From: Pseudomonas sp. MUP55
Lineage (GTDB): Bacteria > Pseudomonadota > Gammaproteobacteria > Pseudomonadales > Pseudomonadaceae
Assembly (NCBI RefSeq): GCF_034043515.1
Contig: NZ_CP138214.1
Coordinates: forward strand, 1,364,001-1,428,000
Length of the DNA: 64,000 nucleotides
Direction: 5' to 3'
A program made the position numbers and the translations under genes. The notes under the pieces were generated by a model. It was not told where the DNA came from and ran no database searches. It saw only the letters and a list, made by a program, of their open reading frames with translations. Of this stretch, positions 2,165 through 23,173 are shown in pieces (the stretch's first letter is position 1; each line of letters begins with the position of its first letter).

Positions 2165-2336
2165 TTGTCGTAAGTATTCGGTTCTTTTACAAGGTCTTAG
2201 CGTCTCGAATTGTTGAGAGGTTTTTCTAACCCTTTGAAATGAAACAATTATTTATCGACGTCTGGGCATTTTTGCCAGGCGGCCATCCGGTTGGATGCCG
2301 TTGAACTAATTCTGGGACGCTTTAACATCAGCCCTG

Positions 2337-2468
2337 TGTCCACGGATTGGCACGACCATCAAGGAACGATGGTTTGAAGGAATGTCGCAGGATGCGATTC
2401 ATCAGGATGATGAAAAGGAATACAGGGACTAGGGAAAAAATGTGGGCGGGTCATACCGCCCCTTTTTT
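2337..2468 (+). ncRNA. rsmZ: RsmZ, Gac-controlled small RNA that sequesters RsmA/RsmE
   Basis: A short non-coding RNA of about 130 nt that titrates the CsrA-family translational repressors RsmA/RsmE. It begins TGTCCACGGATTGG, close to the known P. fluorescens RsmZ. GGA motifs lie in hairpin loops, for example CCATC-AAGGAAC-GATGG (2357-2373), TCGC-AGGAT-GCGA (about 2385-2397) and TTCATC-AGGAT-GATGAA (about 2398-2414). More GGA motifs follow in AAGGAATACAGGGACTAGGG. The 3' end is an intrinsic terminator (stem about 2444-2462, then six T). A -10 element TAACAT lies at 2323-2328. It is convergent with fdxA, as in other pseudomonads. Confidence 0.92.
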
Positions 2469-2505
2469 CGTCTGTAGAAAAGTGAAACCGGCCACATAGA
2501 AACGC

Positions 2506-3010: not shown

Positions 3011-5602
3011 TTATATCCGAGTCTTCAGTGCATATAACATTTCGAGCGCTTTGCGCGGGGTCACGTCATCCAGGTCAAGCTTAGCCAACTCATCCAGTAC
3101 CGGATGAGGCAGGCTGGCGAACAGATCGCTCTGGTGCGGCGCGGCAGGTTTTTTGCTGGCCTTGGCGGGGCTGGCGACCACGTTTTCATGGGGCAGGGCC
3201 GTGGTTTCCAGGCGGCTGAGGTGCTCACGCGCGCGAGTGATCACGTCCGTCGGCACACCGGCCAACTGAGCGACCGCCAAGCCATAACTCTGGCTCGCCG
3301 GGCCCGGCAGCACATGGTGCAGGAACACAATGCGCTCGTTGTGTTCGGTGGCATTGAGGTGCACGTTGGCCACCAGCGGCTCGCTTTCCGGCAACACGGT
3401 CAATTCGAAGTAGTGCGTGGCAAACAGCGTATAGGCGCGTAAATGCGCCAGACGCTCGGCCGCCGCCCACGCCAGCGACAAGCCGTCGAACGTACTGGTG
3501 CCGCGACCCACTTCGTCCATCAGTACCAGGCTGCGGTCGGTGGCGTTATGCAGAATGTTGGCGGTCTCGCTCATTTCCACCATGAACGTCGAGCGCCCAC
3601 CGGCCAGATCGTCGCTGGAACCGATCCGGGTGAAAATCCGATCCACCAGGGACAGCTCGCAACTGGCCGCCGGCACGAAGCTGCCGATGTGTGCCAGCAG
3701 CACGATCAATGCGGTTTGGCGCATGTAGGTGGACTTACCACCCATGTTCGGACCGGTAATCACCAGCATGCGGGTGTCGTCGTCCAGCGACAGGTCGTTG
3801 GCGACGAACGGCGTGGTCAACACCTGCTCTACCACCGGGTGGCGCCCCTGCACGATGCGCATGCACGGCTCGCTGACGAACCGCGGGCAGTTCAAATCCA
3901 GGTTCAGCGCGCGTTCCGCCAGGTTGCTCAACACATCCAGTTCCGCCAGGGCGGCTGCGGTGTCTTGCAATGGCGCCAGGCGGCTGATCAAGTCTTCGAG
4001 CAGGGCTTCATAGAGCATTTTTTCCCGGGCCAGGGCGCGGCTCTTGGCCGACAGTGCCTTGTCTTCGAACGCCTTGAGCTCCGGGGTGATAAAACGCTCG
4101 GCGCCTTTGAGGGTCTGGCGACGTTGATAGTCGATGGGCGCGGATTCGGCTTGCTTGCTCGGCAACTCGATAAAATAGCCATGCACACGGTTGTAACCGA
4201 CCTTCAGGTTGGCCAGCCCGGTGCGGGCTTTTTCCCGCGCCTCCAGGTCAATCAGGAATTGCCCGGCGTTTTCGCTCAGCGATTGCAGCTCGTCCAGTTC
4301 ACTGTCGTAACCGGTTTTCAGAACACCGCCATCACGAATGATCGCCGGCGGGTTGTCGATAATGGCTTTTTCCAGCAGCGCCGCGAGGTCCGGATAGGTA
4401 CCGGCGGTGACGGCCAACTGTTGCAGGTGCGCAGTCTCCAGCTCGGTCATCGCCGCCTGCAGTTGCGGCAAGGCACCCAGCGCATCACGCAGGCGCGCCA
4501 AATCACGCGGGCGCGCATTGCGTAGGCCGATTCGCGCCAGGATGCGCTCTATGTCCCCGATTTCTTTCAACTGCGGCTGCAGCTTTTCAAAGCGATAGCT
4601 GTCCAGCAGGCAGGTAATGGACGACTGGCGCGCTTGCAGCACGCTTAAATCGCGCAGCGGACGGTTCAGCCAGCGCGTCAGCAGGCGGCTGCCCATGGCG
4701 GTCTGGCAGCGGTCGACCACCGACTGCAGGGTGTTGTCACGCCCGCCCGCCAGGTTGGTATCCAGTTCCAGGTTGCGACGACTGGCGCCATCCAGTACCA
4801 CGGTGTCGTCCAGACGCTCATGGCGCAGGCTGCGCAAGTGCGGCAAGGCAGTGCGCTGGGTTTCCTTGGCATAACTGAGCAAGCAACCGGCCGCGCCAAT
4901 GGCCAGGGTCAACGTCTCACAGCCGAAGCCCTTGAGGTCCTGCACGGAAAATTGCTGACACAGGCTTTTCAGTGCCGAATCGCGTTCGAAATCCCACGGT
5001 GCGCGCCGCTTGGTCCCACGCCGTTTCTCCGCCGGCAAGTCCTTCGGCCAGTCGTCCGGGATCAACAGTTCCACCGGATTAATACGCTCCAGCTCCGCCA
5101 GCAGGTTCTCCCAGCCCTTGATCTCCAGCACGCTGAAATTGCCACTGGTGATATCCAGTACCGAAAGACCGAACAAACGCTCATCGCCCAGAACCGCCGC
5201 GATCAAGTTATCGCGCCGCTCATCCAGCAGCGCCTCGTCGCTCACCGTCCCCGGCGTGATAATGCGCACCACCTGGCGTTCCACCGGCCCTTTACTGGTG
5301 GCCGGGTCGCCGATCTGCTCACAGATCACCACCGACTCGCCCAGCTTCACCAGCTTGACCAGATAACCTTCCAGCGAGTGGTAAGGAATCCCACACATCG
5401 GAATCGACTGCCCCGCCGATTGCCCACGGGCAGTCAGGGTAATGTCCAGCAACTTGGCGGCCTTCTTCGCATCCTCATAGAAGATCTCGTAGAAGTCGCC
5501 CATGCGATAGAACATCAACTGATCAGGGTGCTGGTTCTTCAGGCGCCAGTACTGCTGCATCATCGGGGTGTGGGAGGACAGATCGGAGGCGTTTTTACTC
5601 AT
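3011..5602 (-). CDS. mutS: DNA mismatch repair protein MutS
   Basis: Mismatch-recognition ATPase that starts methyl-independent repair with MutL. It is 863 residues, full length. The N-terminal mismatch-binding domain contains the phenylalanine/glutamate reading segment in [16 protein letters not shown] near residue 30. Connector and lever domains follow. The C-terminal ATPase has Walker [14 protein letters not shown] near residue 620 and the [15 protein letters not shown] signature with the Walker B acid. Start ATG is at 5602. In fluorescens-group genomes this gene marks the left border of the tailocin site, as it does here. Confidence 0.98.
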
Positions 5603-6863: not shown

Positions 6864-6907
6864 ATTAGCATTTGCCAACCTCTAAAACTCCCGTCACTAT
6901 CCGCTTT

Positions 6908-7642
6908 ATGCAAAAACGCAACGTTTCTATCGTCTTGAAAGAGCTGCTCGATCGCGACCGAATCTCTCCTACAGAGCTTCATCGGCGAACTGGCGTGCCT
7001 CAATCCACACTGTCCCGGATCCTCAGCGGCAAGATCGTTGATCCGTCGGACAAACACATCTCGCGCATCGCCGAATATTTTCGCGTCAGCACCGATCACC
7101 TGCGCGGGCGCGCAGCGGTGGGGGCTTTGCGCGATGATGGGCGCGACCCGATGCACTCGGAACTCAAGGACATAAGCCTGTGGGACGACGACACTCCCGT
7201 TAATGATGACGAGGTGTCGATCCCCTTTCTGCGCGAGGTTGAATTGGCTGCTGGATCAGGAAGATTCGTCATCGAGGAAAGCGAGAAGGCCAGCCTGCGT
7301 TTTGGAAAGCGCAGCCTGCGGCATAACGGTGTGCAGTTCGACCAGGCCAAGTGCGTGACGGTGCGCGGCAACAGCATGTTGCCGGTGCTGCGCGATGGCG
7401 CGACGGTGGGGGTCAATGCCGGCAAGAGCGGGATTGGCGACATCGTCGATGGTGACCTCTACGCCATCAACCACAATGGTCAGCTGCGGGTTAAACAGCT
7501 CTACCGCCTGCCTACCGGTATTCGCCTGCGCAGCTTCAATCGTGATGAGCACCCGGATGAAGACTATAGTTTCCAGGATATTCAGGACGAGCAGATCAGC
7601 ATCCTCGGCCATGTGTTCTGGTGGGGCATGTACGCTCGTTAA
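6908..7642 (+). CDS. LexA/CI-like self-cleaving repressor of the tailocin (PrtR-like)
   Basis: 244 residues. An N-terminal helix-turn-helix (about residues 5-65, with the segment RRTGVPQSTLSRILSGK) is followed by a C-terminal S24 peptidase domain. The expected self-cleavage site A115-G116 lies in ELAAGSGRF. The catalytic pair is S156 (RGNSMLP) and K196 (LRVKQL). In pyocin systems such repressors are inactivated by RecA filaments after DNA damage. ATG 6908 was chosen over an upstream TTG at 6872; neither has a convincing Shine-Dalgarno. It reads in the same direction as the tailocin genes but is separated from them by a terminator and the operator-bearing promoter. Confidence 0.92.
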   Translation: MQKRNVSIVLKELLDRDRISPTELHRRTGVPQSTLSRILSGKIVDPSDKHISRIAEYFRVSTDHLRGRAAVGALRDDGRDPMHSELKDISLWDDDTPVNDDEVSIPFLREVELAAGSGRFVIEESEKASLRFGKRSLRHNGVQFDQAKCVTVRGNSMLPVLRDGATVGVNAGKSGIGDIVDGDLYAINHNGQLRVKQLYRLPTGIRLRSFNRDEHPDEDYSFQDIQDEQISILGHVFWWGMYAR

Positions 7643-7738: not shown

Positions 7739-7799
7739 TGCATTTGCATGGCAAAAATAAATGCATTTGTGCATTGACTGTATATGCATACATGCATAT
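7739..7799. promoter_or_regulatory. operator cluster over the tailocin promoter
   Basis: Three related palindromes: TGCATTTGCA (7739-7748), ATGCATTTGTGCAT (7761-7774) and ATATGCATACATGCATAT (7782-7799). The last is a perfect 8-bp inverted repeat around AC. The second touches the -35 element and the third covers the spacer and reaches the -10. This is the expected layout for repression by the adjacent CI-like protein. CTGTATATGCATACAT at 7778-7793 is also one base short of a LexA box (CTGT-N8-ACAG). Confidence 0.7.
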
Positions 7800-7802
7800 T
7801 CT
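7774..7802 (+). promoter_or_regulatory. tailocin promoter
   Basis: TTGACT (7774-7779), a 17-base spacer and TATTCT (7797-7802). Transcription would begin near 7809 and read into the leader and holin. The elements are interleaved with the operator palindromes. Confidence 0.72.
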
Positions 7803-7808
7803 TCATCT

Positions 7809-8163
7809 CAAGCCAGCCAACAAGGCCTGGTGGAGGCGGCAAGGATGCTGCCAAGGAAGACAAGGAAGGCACGCAACATCGGCAAGGACGCCATCGAAGC
7901 GATGGCAGGGATGCCAGGCAACACCGGCAAGGATGCCGACGCTCTTTAGTGGTACCGCTTCAAAAACAGGCAGCGATGAACCGGCCTTAACGGTTCAGAG
8001 GGTTGGCAACTGACCCGGGTGTGCAGCGTAAAGCACCAGAAGCAGTTATCCGGCAGACAGGGATCGTGGTCGGAAAAACATTGAGGAAAGGACCGTACCG
8101 CGCCAGTAGCGCCGACAGTCCGAGGACATCATTACTGAAAAGCCCGGGCAACCGGGCTTTTTG
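7809..8163 (+). ncRNA. candidate tailocin leader RNA with clustered Rsm/Csr-type hairpins
   Basis: No convincing gene lies between the tailocin promoter and the holin (about 420 bp). The first 130 nt contain six exact CANGGANG motifs: 7840-7847, 7852-7859, 7861-7868, 7883-7890, 7906-7913 and 7928-7935. Four can be drawn as hexaloop hairpins: GGCGGC-AAGGAT-GCTGCC (7835-7852, six pairs), GGC-AAGGAC-GCC (7881-7892), TGGC-AGGGAT-GCCA (7903-7916) and CGGC-AAGGAT-GCCG (7925-7938). ANGGAN in a hexaloop is the known RsmA/RsmE target. A competing hairpin CCATCG-AAG-CGATGG (7891-7905) could disrupt two of them. More GGA motifs follow, and the RNA ends at the terminator 8141-8162. Reading it as an Rsm-binding leader or sponge is inference. 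A reading frame at 7761-7949 crosses the motifs but starts within the promoter and has no ribosome-binding site. Confidence 0.6.
8141..8162 (+). terminator. intrinsic terminator at the end of the tailocin leader
   Basis: AGCCCGG (8141-8147), a GCAA tetraloop and CCGGGCT (8152-8158), followed by a run of T to 8162 and preceded by GAAA. It lies between the tailocin promoter and the first structural gene, so read-through or antitermination must occur for the operon to be expressed from this promoter. Confidence 0.85.
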
Positions 8164-8232: not shown

Positions 8233-8571
8233 ATGACAAACGAACAACAAGCGTTAGCGGAAATGCCTATCTGGCTGGTGATCATATTGGCCTTGATCGG
8301 CGGGGTTTCCGGCGAAATGTGGCGCGCCGACAAGGAGGGCGCCCGCGGCTGGTCGCTGATTCGGCGCCTGGCACTGCGCTCCGGGGCGTGCATGGTGTGT
8401 GGGGTTTCGGCCCTGATGCTGTGCTACGCCGCCGGTATGTCGATCTGGACCGCCGGCGCCATTGGTTGCCTCACCGCCATGGCCGGTGCCGATGTGGCCA
8501 TCGGCCTTTATGAGCGCTGGGCGGCCAAGCGCATCGGGATCAACGAAGGTTCCCGTCAGGACCCGCAGTAA
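8233..8571 (+). CDS. tailocin holin
   Basis: 112-residue membrane protein with three hydrophobic segments: near residues 12-28 (IWLVIILALIGGVSG), 50-68 and 70-90. It ends in a charged, soluble tail (ERWAAKRIGINEGSRQDPQ). Size and topology fit the holins that open fluorescens tailocin clusters and permeabilise the inner membrane to release endolysin. ATG 8233 has AGGAGG six bases upstream. It is the first gene after the leader terminator. Confidence 0.82.
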   Translation: MTNEQQALAEMPIWLVIILALIGGVSGEMWRADKEGARGWSLIRRLALRSGACMVCGVSALMLCYAAGMSIWTAGAIGCLTAMAGADVAIGLYERWAAKRIGINEGSRQDPQ

Positions 8572-13395: not shown

Positions 13396-13416
13396 ACCGC
13401 GAAAGCGGTTTTTTTT
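13396..13416 (+). terminator. terminator after the fibre module
   Basis: ACCGC-GAAA-GCGGT followed by eight T. A second hairpin (CAAAGCCCCT...AGGGGCTTTG, about 13425-13449) follows. Together they divide the baseplate/fibre half from the sheath/tube half. Confidence 0.78.
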
Positions 13417-19927: not shown

Positions 19928-20485
19928 ATGCTGATGACACTTGCCCAGCTTCTGGGTGTAATGCCTGGTGCCCGCCTTCGAGCGGGCATTTTTTTGTCCC
20001 CTTTAAATGCAGCCTTCGTTCGGTACGAGATTGACAACGCCAAACGCATCGCCGCCTTCCTCGCCCAAGTCGGCCACGAATCCGCCGAACTGCGCTACGT
20101 GCGTGAACTGGGCAGCGATCAATACCTCAGCAAGTACGACACCGGCACTCTGGCTGCACGCTTGGGCAATACCCCCGAGGCGGATGGCGATGGCCAGAAA
20201 TACCGGGGGAGGGGGCTGATTCAGGTCACCGGTCGCCGTAACTACCTGTCCTGCAGCCAGGCATTATTTGGCGATGATCGCCTGCTGCAACAACCGCAGC
20301 TGCTGGAGCAGCCCGAATGGGCCTGCGAATCCGCCGCCTGGTTCTGGCAAACCAACGGCCTCAACGAATTGGCCGACAAGGACCAGTTCACCACCATCAC
20401 CCGGCGTATCAACGGCGGCTTGAACGGGCTGCAGGACCGATTGCAACTGTGGGAACGGGCGAAGGCGGTGTTATGCGTTTCCTAG
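19928..20485 (+). CDS. tailocin endolysin, glycoside hydrolase family 19 (chitinase-like)
   Basis: 185 residues. Typical GH19 lysozyme features are AAFLAQVGHESAELRYVREL with the catalytic glutamate, YRGRGLIQVTGRRNY near residue 96, and ACESAAWFWQTNGLNELAD. It cleaves peptidoglycan glycan strands once the holin opens the inner membrane. No signal peptide is visible, which fits holin-dependent release. A second in-frame ATG at 19934 is possible. The 3' end overlaps the spanin gene by 13 bases. Confidence 0.93.
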   Translation: MLMTLAQLLGVMPGARLRAGIFLSPLNAAFVRYEIDNAKRIAAFLAQVGHESAELRYVRELGSDQYLSKYDTGTLAARLGNTPEADGDGQKYRGRGLIQVTGRRNYLSCSQALFGDDRLLQQPQLLEQPEWACESAAWFWQTNGLNELADKDQFTTITRRINGGLNGLQDRLQLWERAKAVLCVS

Positions 20486-21054: not shown

Positions 21055-21555
21055 GTGAAGGAAATCACTCAACTGGCTGCTGAACTGGGGCGCCGTTTGC
21101 AGGTGCTCAATGCCCATGTCACCACCGCCGAGTCCTGCACCGGCGGCGGGATTGCCGAAGCCATTACGCGGATACCAGGCAGTTCGGCGTGGTTCGAGGC
21201 GGGCTATGTCACCTACTCCAACCGGCAGAAGACCCGGCAGTTGAATGTGCCGGAAAAGCTGTTTGCCAAAGTGGGCGCCGTCAGCCAGGAGGTGGTGGAA
21301 GCGATGGTGCGGGGCGCACAGGAAAAAAGCCTGGCGCGCTTTGCCGTGGCGGTCAGCGGCGTGGCCGGTCCTGACGGTGGCTCGCCGGACAAGCCGGTGG
21401 GCACGGTGTGGCTGGCGTTTGGCGTGGGCGACGAGGTCACGGCCGAGCTTGTGCACTTTCCCGGCAACCGCGATGAGGTCCGCCGACAAACGGTAAAGGC
21501 TGCGCTGGAGGGCTTGTTGCGACGAGCTGCAGCAGAAATAGACAATCAGGGGTAG
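21055..21555 (+). CDS. cinA: CinA/PncC nicotinamide-nucleotide amidase
   Basis: 166 residues, the short C-terminal CinA form that hydrolyses NMN to NaMN in pyridine-nucleotide recycling. Features are [25 protein letters not shown] (read as [20 protein letters not shown] then SSAWF) with the catalytic serine, the YSNRQK segment, and [23 protein letters not shown] 21055 is the start, with GGAG seven bases upstream. It precedes recA by about 80 bp, the usual order, and marks the right border of the tailocin. Confidence 0.95.
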
Positions 21556-21582
21556 GCGATCTTCGATCTTTGTGGAACAATA

Positions 21583-21598
21583 CTGTCTACTTATACAG
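21583..21598 (+). promoter_or_regulatory. LexA (SOS) box of recA
   Basis: CTGTCTACTTATACAG matches CTGT-N8-ACAG perfectly. It lies 41 bp before the recA ATG and over the promoter region, as expected for LexA repression of recA. Confidence 0.93.
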
Positions 21599-21638
21599 GT
21601 GTTGGCCGTCAGGCCTTATTGATTACGTGAGGACTTTA

Positions 21639-22697
21639 ATGGACGACAACAAGAAGAAAGCCTTGGCTGCGGCCCTGGGTCAGATCGAACGTCAATTCGG
21701 CAAGGGTGCCGTAATGCGTATGGGCGATCACGACCGTCAGGCGATCCCGGCTATCTCCACTGGCTCTCTGGGTCTGGACATCGCGCTCGGCATTGGCGGC
21801 CTGCCAAAAGGCCGTATCGTTGAAATCTACGGTCCTGAATCTTCCGGTAAGACTACCCTGACCCTGTCGGTGATTGCCCAGGCTCAGAAAATGGGTGCTA
21901 CCTGCGCGTTCGTCGACGCCGAGCACGCCCTGGACCCGGAATACGCCGGCAAACTGGGCGTCAACGTTGACGACCTGCTGGTTTCCCAGCCGGACACCGG
22001 CGAGCAAGCCCTGGAAATCACCGACATGCTGGTGCGCTCAAACGCCATCGACGTGATCGTGGTCGACTCCGTGGCAGCGCTGGTACCGAAGGCAGAAATC
22101 GAAGGCGAAATGGGCGACATGCACGTGGGCCTGCAAGCCCGTCTGATGTCCCAGGCGCTGCGTAAAATCACCGGTAACATCAAGAACGCGAACTGCCTGG
22201 TGATCTTCATCAACCAGATCCGTATGAAGATCGGTGTCATGTTCGGTAGCCCGGAAACCACCACCGGTGGTAACGCGCTGAAGTTCTACGCTTCGGTCCG
22301 TCTGGATATCCGCCGTACCGGCGCGGTGAAGGAAGGTGACGAGGTTGTCGGTAGCGAAACCCGCGTTAAAGTGGTGAAGAACAAGGTAGCTCCACCTTTC
22401 CGTCAAGCAGAGTTCCAGATTCTGTATGGCAAGGGCATCTACCTGAACGGCGAGATGATCGACTTGGGCGTGCTGCACGGTTTCGTCGAGAAGTCCGGTG
22501 CCTGGTATGCCTACAACGGCAGCAAGATCGGTCAGGGCAAGGCCAACTCGGCCAAGTTCCTGGCGGACAACCCCGATATCGCCGCCACGCTTGAGAAGCA
22601 GATTCGCGACAAGCTGCTGACCGCAGCGCCAGACGTCAAAGCAGCCGCCAACCGCGCGCCGGTTGACGAGATGGAAGAAGTCGACACTGACGTCTGA
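21639..22697 (+). CDS. recA: recombinase RecA
   Basis: 352 residues. It polymerises on single-stranded DNA, drives strand exchange and acts as co-protease for LexA and phage-type repressors. The Walker A is GPESSGKTT near residue 66. The DNA-binding loops lie around residues 157-164 and 195-209 ([20 protein letters not shown]), and the acidic tail ends EEVDTDV. ATG 21639 follows a GAGG. It is probably cotranscribed with recX nine bases downstream. It lies next to the tailocin whose repressor it is expected to trigger. Confidence 0.99.
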
Positions 22698-22705
22698 AGC
22701 AAACG

Positions 22706-23173
22706 ATGACTGTTGTACTGGATACACTCGTCGCCGTTCGGCGCACTGCGATGGACCTGCTCGCACGCCGCGAGCATGGTCGAGTCGAGCTGACACGCAA
22801 ATTGCGTCAGCGCGGCGCAGAGCCTGAAATGATCGAAACAGCCCTCGACCGCTTGACGGAAGAGGGTTTGTTGTCGGAATCCCGATACCTCGAAAGCTTT
22901 GTGTCCTACCGCGCCCGCTCCGGTTATGGCCCTGCGCGAATTCGCGAAGAGTTGAGCCAGCGTGGCCTGCAACGTGCCGATATCGACCTCGCCTTGCGTG
23001 AGTGCGGTATCAGTTGGCAGTCGCAGTTGGAAGAGACTTGGCGCCGCAAGTTTTCAGGTCATCTTCCTATAGATGCTAAAGAGCGCGCCAAGCAAGGGCG
23101 CTTCCTGAGTTATCGTGGGTTTTCGATGGACATGATCAGTCGCTTGTTAAGCGGCCGAGACATGGATGACTGA
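22706..23173 (+). CDS. recX: RecA regulator RecX
   Basis: 155 residues. It binds and limits RecA filaments. The repeated three-helix units are visible: [20 protein letters not shown] near residue 13, then [17 protein letters not shown] [20 protein letters not shown] near 45, then [23 protein letters not shown] 22706 is used. It follows recA at nine bases and ends before a strong terminator. Confidence 0.96.

Follow-up and report, generated by a model that had tools for sequence, protein, structure and literature searches.

The locus described here raises the question of why the leader of a phage-derived killing operon should carry six copies of a GGA motif of the kind bound by RsmA and RsmE, and what these sites would do there. 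The window, a stretch of 64,000 nt that was analysed as a whole, lies in the 5.95 Mb chromosome of a member of the genus Pseudomonas, Pseudomonas sp. MUP55, whose genome contains three CsrA-family genes. It contains a contractile-tail tailocin between mutS and cinA/recA/recX, as the initial annotation proposed and as the gene content by Pfam and PHROGs confirms. The genes after the leader encode a holin, baseplate, sheath, tape measure and tail protein, a GH19 endolysin and an Rz spanin (Pfam, PHROGs). The interval between mutS and cinA/recA is described as a tailocin site with PrtR in the excerpted text of PMC7815802. The following features are found in the window:

2335..2469, + strand: host RsmZ RNA gene, outside the tailocin (Rfam RF00166, 117.9 bits)
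3011-5602, minus strand: mutS, named by eye from its translation
6872..7642, + strand: PrtR-type repressor with Cro/CI helix-turn-helix and peptidase S24 domains (Pfam, PHROGs); the ORF is taken from a TTG and its start is provisional
7762-7773 and 7785-7796: TGCATACATGCA-type palindromes overlapping the promoter, read from the sequence
7774..7802, + strand: sigma-70-like promoter TTGACT-17-TATTCT (consensus scan; 0.4 such sites expected in that stretch)
7835..7852, + strand: hairpin GGCGGC-AAGGAT-GCTGCC with site 1 as hexaloop; pairing kept through changes in 41 sequences
7840..7935, + strand: array of six CANGGANG Rsm-type sites (motif search, conservation, simulation, covariance model, predicted fold)
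7890..7906, + strand: hairpin GCCATCGAAGCGATGGC between sites 4 and 5; at one pair, U-A is replaced by C-G in 3/41 sequences and by C-A in 2/41
7925..7938, + strand: hairpin CGGC-AAGGAT-GCCG with site 6 as hexaloop; stem invariant in 41 sequences
7940..7948, + strand: boxA-like CGCTCTTTA, a candidate NusB/S10 site
7968..8074, + strand: conserved structured core RNA of ~107 nt, a candidate nut/put-like antitermination element
8137..8162, + strand: hairpin with U5, intrinsic-terminator-like (GAAAAGCCCGGGCAACCGGGCTTTTT)
8233..8571, + strand: holin, Phage_holin_3_5, the first gene 3′ of the leader (Pfam, PHROGs)
13396..13416, + strand: terminator-like hairpin with a T run inside the operon, just 3′ of an unnamed ORF
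19928-20485: endolysin ORF
19967..19995, + strand: terminator-like hairpin with a T run, inside the 5′ end of the endolysin ORF
21055-23173: cinA/recA/recX

The leader runs from the promoter to the five-T hairpin, and its outline agrees with what had been claimed: the promoter-like element is overlapped by palindromes that are probably PrtR operators, the terminator-like hairpin precedes the holin, and an RsmZ gene lies upstream. The terminator hairpin is absent from the consensus-scan list, probably because its Ts sit inside the stem.

Exact CANGGANG motifs start at 7840, 7852, 7861, 7883, 7906 and 7928 on the + strand (motif search of the window), which are the six copies within 96 nt (7840-7935) that the initial annotation considered too dense for chance. 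The motif itself is hardly enriched in the window, whose two strands together have 52 matches where 41 would be expected (a count reached in one shuffle of 100), and it is therefore the cluster that matters. The claim stands: across 60 simulated runs of 200 kb (12 Mb, one strand, first-order Markov model from the window), the best 96-nt cluster contained three motifs, in one run.

A covariance model of the array scores at least 142 bits in 65 of 398 Pseudomonas genomes, MUP55 counted, among them P. simiae, P. lactis, P. poae and P. rhodesiae; seven other genomes match the model only at 24-27 bits. A second, partial copy is present in one genome (G120:C1:2434348-2434442, locus L358; 88.8 bits). 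Pattern scans of viral and genome contigs, relatives and three phage records together yielded at least 266 copies of the conserved leader block, at least 233 of them distinct. Within these 233, a sample picked by core motif among the matches listed, 47 core-bearing leaders have an array of four to six motifs (L041, whose upstream sequence is cut off and which has one motif visible, is scored as non-array); arrays without the core are detectable only via the covariance-model search, whose filters can lose weak matches. By these counts the array is not a general trait of fluorescens-group tailocin leaders; it is an optional insert in a far wider leader type.

PrtR lies close upstream in all 43 array leaders with enough sequence, and the array is found in none of the 56 leaders without PrtR. 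In a PrtR tree of 133 of the 163 PrtR-bearing distinct loci (37/43 with the array, 96/120 others), all 37 sampled array loci form one clade with a support of 0.986, and the array label changes once, compared with at least 28 times in 200 shuffles. One clade and a single label change suggest that the array was probably gained once and then kept.

The 43 distinct arrays derive from 46 of the 47 array loci, L218 being left out for its short upstream sequence. Parsimony assigns 41 changes to the 12 N positions of the motifs (3.42 per position), six to the 24 A/GGA positions (0.25), four to the 12 C and G flanks (0.33) and 90 to the 84 other array positions (1.07). The contrast between N and fixed positions is matched by none of 20,000 random placements of six motifs. 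Departures from the major allele follow the same order, at 14.1% for N, 1.2% for fixed motif positions and 3.7% elsewhere. Selection on the Rsm consensus as such would be expected to spare A/GGA and to let N change, as is observed. On this evidence from sequence evolution, the array is very probably a selected target of Rsm proteins. The exact motif is kept at sites 1 to 6 in 42, 35, 41, 43, 42 and 42 of the 43 arrays, site 2 (7852-7859) being the least conserved (35 versus 41-43 for the other sites). Two deletion variants of the array, L039 and L071, are also found.

Across the six sites the GGA is unpaired with a probability of 0.79-0.98 in the predicted ensemble. Mean openness is 0.883, against 0.558 (sd 0.105) in motif-fixed shuffles, none of 500 being as high, and 0.859 over 41 natural arrays. 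The initial annotation had proposed four ANGGAN hexaloops. Two of these are favoured, with closing-pair probabilities of 0.52 at site 1 (7840) and 0.51 at site 6 (7928), while at the other two, as at every remaining site, the value is below 0.04. Forcing all four hexaloops together has a predicted cost of ~6.3 kcal/mol, and hexaloop closure summed over the sites is ordinary, as 52/500 shuffles reach the same level. Sites 2 and 3 are predicted to be single-stranded, and sites 4 and 5 to be mostly opposed in an internal loop on the rival hairpin. RsmE has high affinity for ANGGAX hexaloops and also binds single-stranded GGA, according to the excerpted text of PMC4005645.

This rival hairpin had been noted earlier (as 7891-7905) as competing with hexaloops at two sites, and it holds up well. 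In an alignment of 41 of the 43 arrays (A1; L039 and L071 left out), 98.4% of its cells are paired, three sequences carry one compensatory pair, and sites 4 and 5 remain open in its internal loop. The check on stem covariation that had been suggested gives a weak result for the array as a whole, in which one pair has changed on both sides, a level reached by 172/500 shuffles. The changes are too few for covariation to serve as proof of the array stems. The consensus fold also hinted that the AAGGA sites might mask boxA, a suggestion to which ensemble calculations lend no support. Holding the Rsm sites open has no consistent effect on boxA accessibility. For 7941-7949, a segment shifted by one base from boxA, the value moves from 0.47 to 0.67 in a short piece and from 0.55 to 0.49 when the leader is folded whole.

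Downstream of the array, boxA CGCTCTTTA is exact in 47/47 array leaders. Within one mismatch it occurs in 73/120 PrtR leaders, 44/56 other leaders and 1/206 control windows, and 42/120 PrtR leaders are without it at two mismatches. It agrees with the GYTCTTTA part of the gamma-proteobacterial consensus GYTCTTTAANA given in the excerpted text of PMC5725501; the trailing AANA is not matched. The most conserved part of the leader is the core block at ~7968-8074, rather than the array. An exact 17-mer of the core is present in 219/398 Pseudomonas genomes, and the core is found both in tailocins and in phages, e.g. PseuP_224, Orimi01 and Aurca01. It has no match in Rfam at E 10. In an alignment of 33 diverse sequences from the 233 blocks (A2), core helices are paired in 98.2% of cells and contain 32 double changes versus 7.8 in shuffles, with 0/500 shuffles having as many and slid structures giving 0-4; the search motif is common to all blocks by construction, and the shuffles ignore relatedness. 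A covarying leader RNA corresponding to 7968-8074, often with boxA, is thus seen genus-wide in tailocins and temperate phages (L034, L037, L279, L280, L320). The core follows a CI gene on the same strand in PseuP_224 and Aurca01; the repressor-like gene annotated in Orimi01 lies on the opposite strand.

The terminator was surveyed in 226 of the 233 loci. A 3′ hairpin with a T run of at least four is present in 47/47 array leaders, in 86/114 other PrtR leaders (the hairpin itself in 93) and in 7/65 leaders classed as other (the hairpin itself in 30), a class which includes loci with short upstream sequence; six of those seven have at most 311 nt upstream, which makes their class uncertain. By these frequencies the U tract of the leader terminator looks tailocin-specific. 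Leaders that keep the terminator and have no GGA sites, which the initial annotation held to speak against an Rsm role, are therefore found outside the array clade, in those 86 PrtR leaders; within the clade there are none, as 37/37 keep the array.

Two terminator-like hairpins inside the operon (13396-13416 and 19967-19995) were singled out because each has seven or eight Ts in a row; overall the operon has no excess of terminator-like sites, at 14 versus 19.4 in shuffles. The second hairpin falls in the first endolysin codons (19928-19995); the actual start of the gene may be further 3′, or the hairpin may act as a gate on lysis. In the Q8r1-96 tailocin (L278; EU982300.1, 2025-2998), a Com-like gene and a further gene lie between leader and holin, and the stretch annotated as Com extends over the last part of the conserved leader block.

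In lambda nutL and HK022 putL, the leader of the operon after cI carries a structured RNA, with boxA in nut and a terminator behind. The tailocin leader has the same position, a boxA (as in nut only), a structured RNA with a terminator behind and, the opposite-strand gene of Orimi01 apart, a place beside a CI-type repressor gene. What sets it apart is the core, a longer covarying RNA of another kind that has no match in Rfam. The reading best supported by position, boxA, covariation and the in-operon hairpins is that the boxA-core part acts as a processive antitermination site, and we consider this reading probable. The boxA-core leader looks like a candidate antitermination RNA family without prior description. 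The initial annotation had also suggested that Rsm proteins bound to the leader let transcription through the terminator; the readthrough idea is better carried by boxA and core, which are present in most tailocins without the array.

Loci that have lost their tail genes offer a view of the two parts separately. The 66 array loci come from 65 genomes and include the partial second copy in G120, the seven weak matches (24-27 bits) being left out. In five of them (L321, L322, L323, L359 and L360) cinA lies within 1.5 kb of the array, and in these stretches of 9 to 19 kb there is no match to baseplate, sheath, tape measure, tail protein or endolysin. PrtR, holin and cinA are all present in the five, one of which has a stop in the PrtR alignment, and L359 retains a fragment of Rz. 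Array (with five or six motifs), boxA, terminator and holin are preserved in every one of the five. The core RNA is lost or degraded in three of them and in none of the 61 other array loci, of which 51 have a tail gene in reach and 10 have neither marker in reach (Fisher's exact ~2e-4 by hand, a post hoc value that ignores relatedness). The core thus tends to accompany the long operon, as an antitermination element should. The loss of the core along with the tail genes while the array is retained indicates that the role of the array seems to lie outside tail synthesis, in an RsmZ-like decoy function or in lysis control, although the array may have had too little time to decay since the tail genes disappeared.

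Taken as a whole, the best explanation is that the array is an SOS-induced Rsm decoy and boxA-core an antitermination element, combined in one leader; we give this an even chance of being right. Upon SOS induction PrtR would leave the promoter and a leader of ~355 nt would be transcribed. The six-site array would bind dimers of host RsmA, RsmE or RsmI, a step for which sequence evolution provides strong support. BoxA and the structured RNA in the nutL/putL position would render polymerase resistant to the leader and in-operon terminators, as their position, boxA, covariation and joint loss with the tail genes suggest. Leader-terminated transcripts, together with the 5′ ends of readthrough transcripts, would then serve as a decoy that lowers free Rsm as RsmZ does, and with less free Rsm the exoproducts under Gac/Rsm control would be released as the cell commits to lysis.

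Of these steps the decoy is the least certain, and titration as the main effect of the array has a chance of at best one half, perhaps slightly below. Sequestration requires multiple GGA motifs according to the excerpted text of PMC2375449, and the number of sites in the array fits sequestering RNAs, which typically have five to six; RsmZ takes up to five RsmE dimers (PMC12047976/PMC13287468, in excerpt). For SBW25, PMC8544851 (in excerpt) describes the tailocin holin PFLU1169 as linked to the SOS response and as costly to the cell, and notes a LexA site upstream of its operon. Of 50 genes whose expression rose with both plasmids, only six were lowered by a gacS mutation, so that Gac control of the tailocin is not shown in the excerpted part of that study.

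The main rival is cis control, in which Rsm bound to the array would alter leader stability, the antitermination complex or holin translation, with lysis and tailocin output following Gac/Rsm and no meaningful titration. We regard this as a serious alternative whose probability is nonetheless somewhat under one half. A holin follows all 47 array leaders, the array stays with PrtR and holin in the five tail-less loci, and it sits directly upstream of boxA. Both 5′-end protection by CsrA and leader control are known mechanisms that favour it; known cis leaders, though, usually have fewer than six sites, which weighs the other way. In Serratia ATCC 39006 an rsmA mutant has raised prophage expression and phage release, a precedent for Rsm restraint of phage operons, and no RNA array is mentioned in the excerpted text (PMC4046660). 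Against cis control, the sites are ~300-390 nt from the holin start with the terminator in between, boxA accessibility shows no consistent response to open Rsm sites, and core and terminator occur without any array in the majority of the tailocin leaders sampled.

Alternatively, the array could be a by-product of repeat expansion without an Rsm role, either a duplicated short purine-rich unit or a DNA-level site. The units are alike (GGCAAGGAYGCC) and the deletion variants L039 and L071 exist, but changes hit the N positions and spare A/GGA, GGA openness exceeds that of shuffles, and the array is kept in 37/37 sampled clade members as well as in the three loci with a decayed neighbouring core RNA; this makes a by-product improbable. 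A small peptide is barely credible, since the ORFs that cross the array stretch in the window are not preserved among the 43 copies (array length is 138-141 nt in 40/43 with single-base differences, stops close every reading frame in 17-24 of 43, and the motif phases are mixed at 1,1,1,2,1,2), in line with the earlier statement that no gene explains the array.

Compared with known systems, the decoy reading places the array closest to RsmX/RsmY/RsmZ (CsrB-type), which in the same hosts have five to six exposed ANGGA in loops and linkers within ~130 nt. Unlike these RNAs, the array forms the 5′ portion of a tailocin mRNA leader, downstream of a PrtR-type promoter, and is followed by boxA, core RNA and a distant terminator. 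It also has no GacA box within three mismatches. With the consensus TGTAAG-N6-CTTACA and up to three mismatches, such boxes occur at eight places in the window, none of them near the leader, and a two-mismatch box at 2147 lies upstream of RsmZ. The Rfam RsmZ model RF00166 scores 22.2 bits on the array, below the cut-off of 44, and a genome-wide search with the RsmZ family does not list it. In five further array loci the RsmZ model is listed for two (22.9 and 19.7 bits), and the rsmX model scores 22.6-30.1 bits in five loci without the array. Homology to RsmZ by Rfam was accordingly rejected, the scores being weak and within noise. Among phage records, the array stretch has six weak matches only, at E 0.1 or worse.

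The leader of the Salmonella fim operon is an mRNA leader that titrates CsrA. It resembles the array in belonging to a structural operon and in having GGA sites that may lower free CsrA; the array has more sites, belongs to a phage-derived killing operon and shares its leader with an antitermination-like module. The AlpA-controlled operons of P. aeruginosa are likewise DNA-damage-linked death operons with leader terminators that need antitermination, but AlpA is a protein with a putative promoter DNA element and the tailocin leader a candidate RNA element (PMC7969949, in excerpt). RsmQ is another case of a mobile element tapping the host Rsm system, in P. fluorescens, although as a plasmid-borne Rsm protein instead of an RNA array (PMC9928087, in excerpt). 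Among the matches listed from open-licence PMC papers (titles and abstract starts), none concerns an Rsm array in the leader of a tailocin or phage, or Gac control of such a leader, and, likewise among matches listed, none describes a leader RNA or boxA site for tailocins or Pseudomonas phages; the excerpted texts of PMC4353343, PMC7937890, PMC4499122 and PMC11893012 contain nothing bearing on an Rsm array in a tailocin leader.

The array is a candidate multi-GGA Rsm RNA, of a known type, at an unexpected place. As a tentative account, held at clearly less than even probability, in one tailocin lineage an RsmZ-like decoy was inserted into an otherwise phage-type antitermination leader, after the promoter and ahead of boxA. 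One SOS-induced RNA would then license the long operon via a new genus-wide nut/put-like RNA and disarm host Rsm, and after tail loss the antitermination RNA would decay while the decoy survives with the holin. If the decoy reading is true, a phage-derived element has evolved its own Rsm decoy, and one leader RNA joins DNA-damage-induced kin killing to the Gac/Rsm network of plant-associated Pseudomonas. A genome of P. simiae, presumably a relative of SBW25, carries the array, and the question is therefore probably testable in a tractable SBW25 relative. Via the tailocin leader, lysis triggered by DNA damage may be coupled to the Gac/Rsm network.
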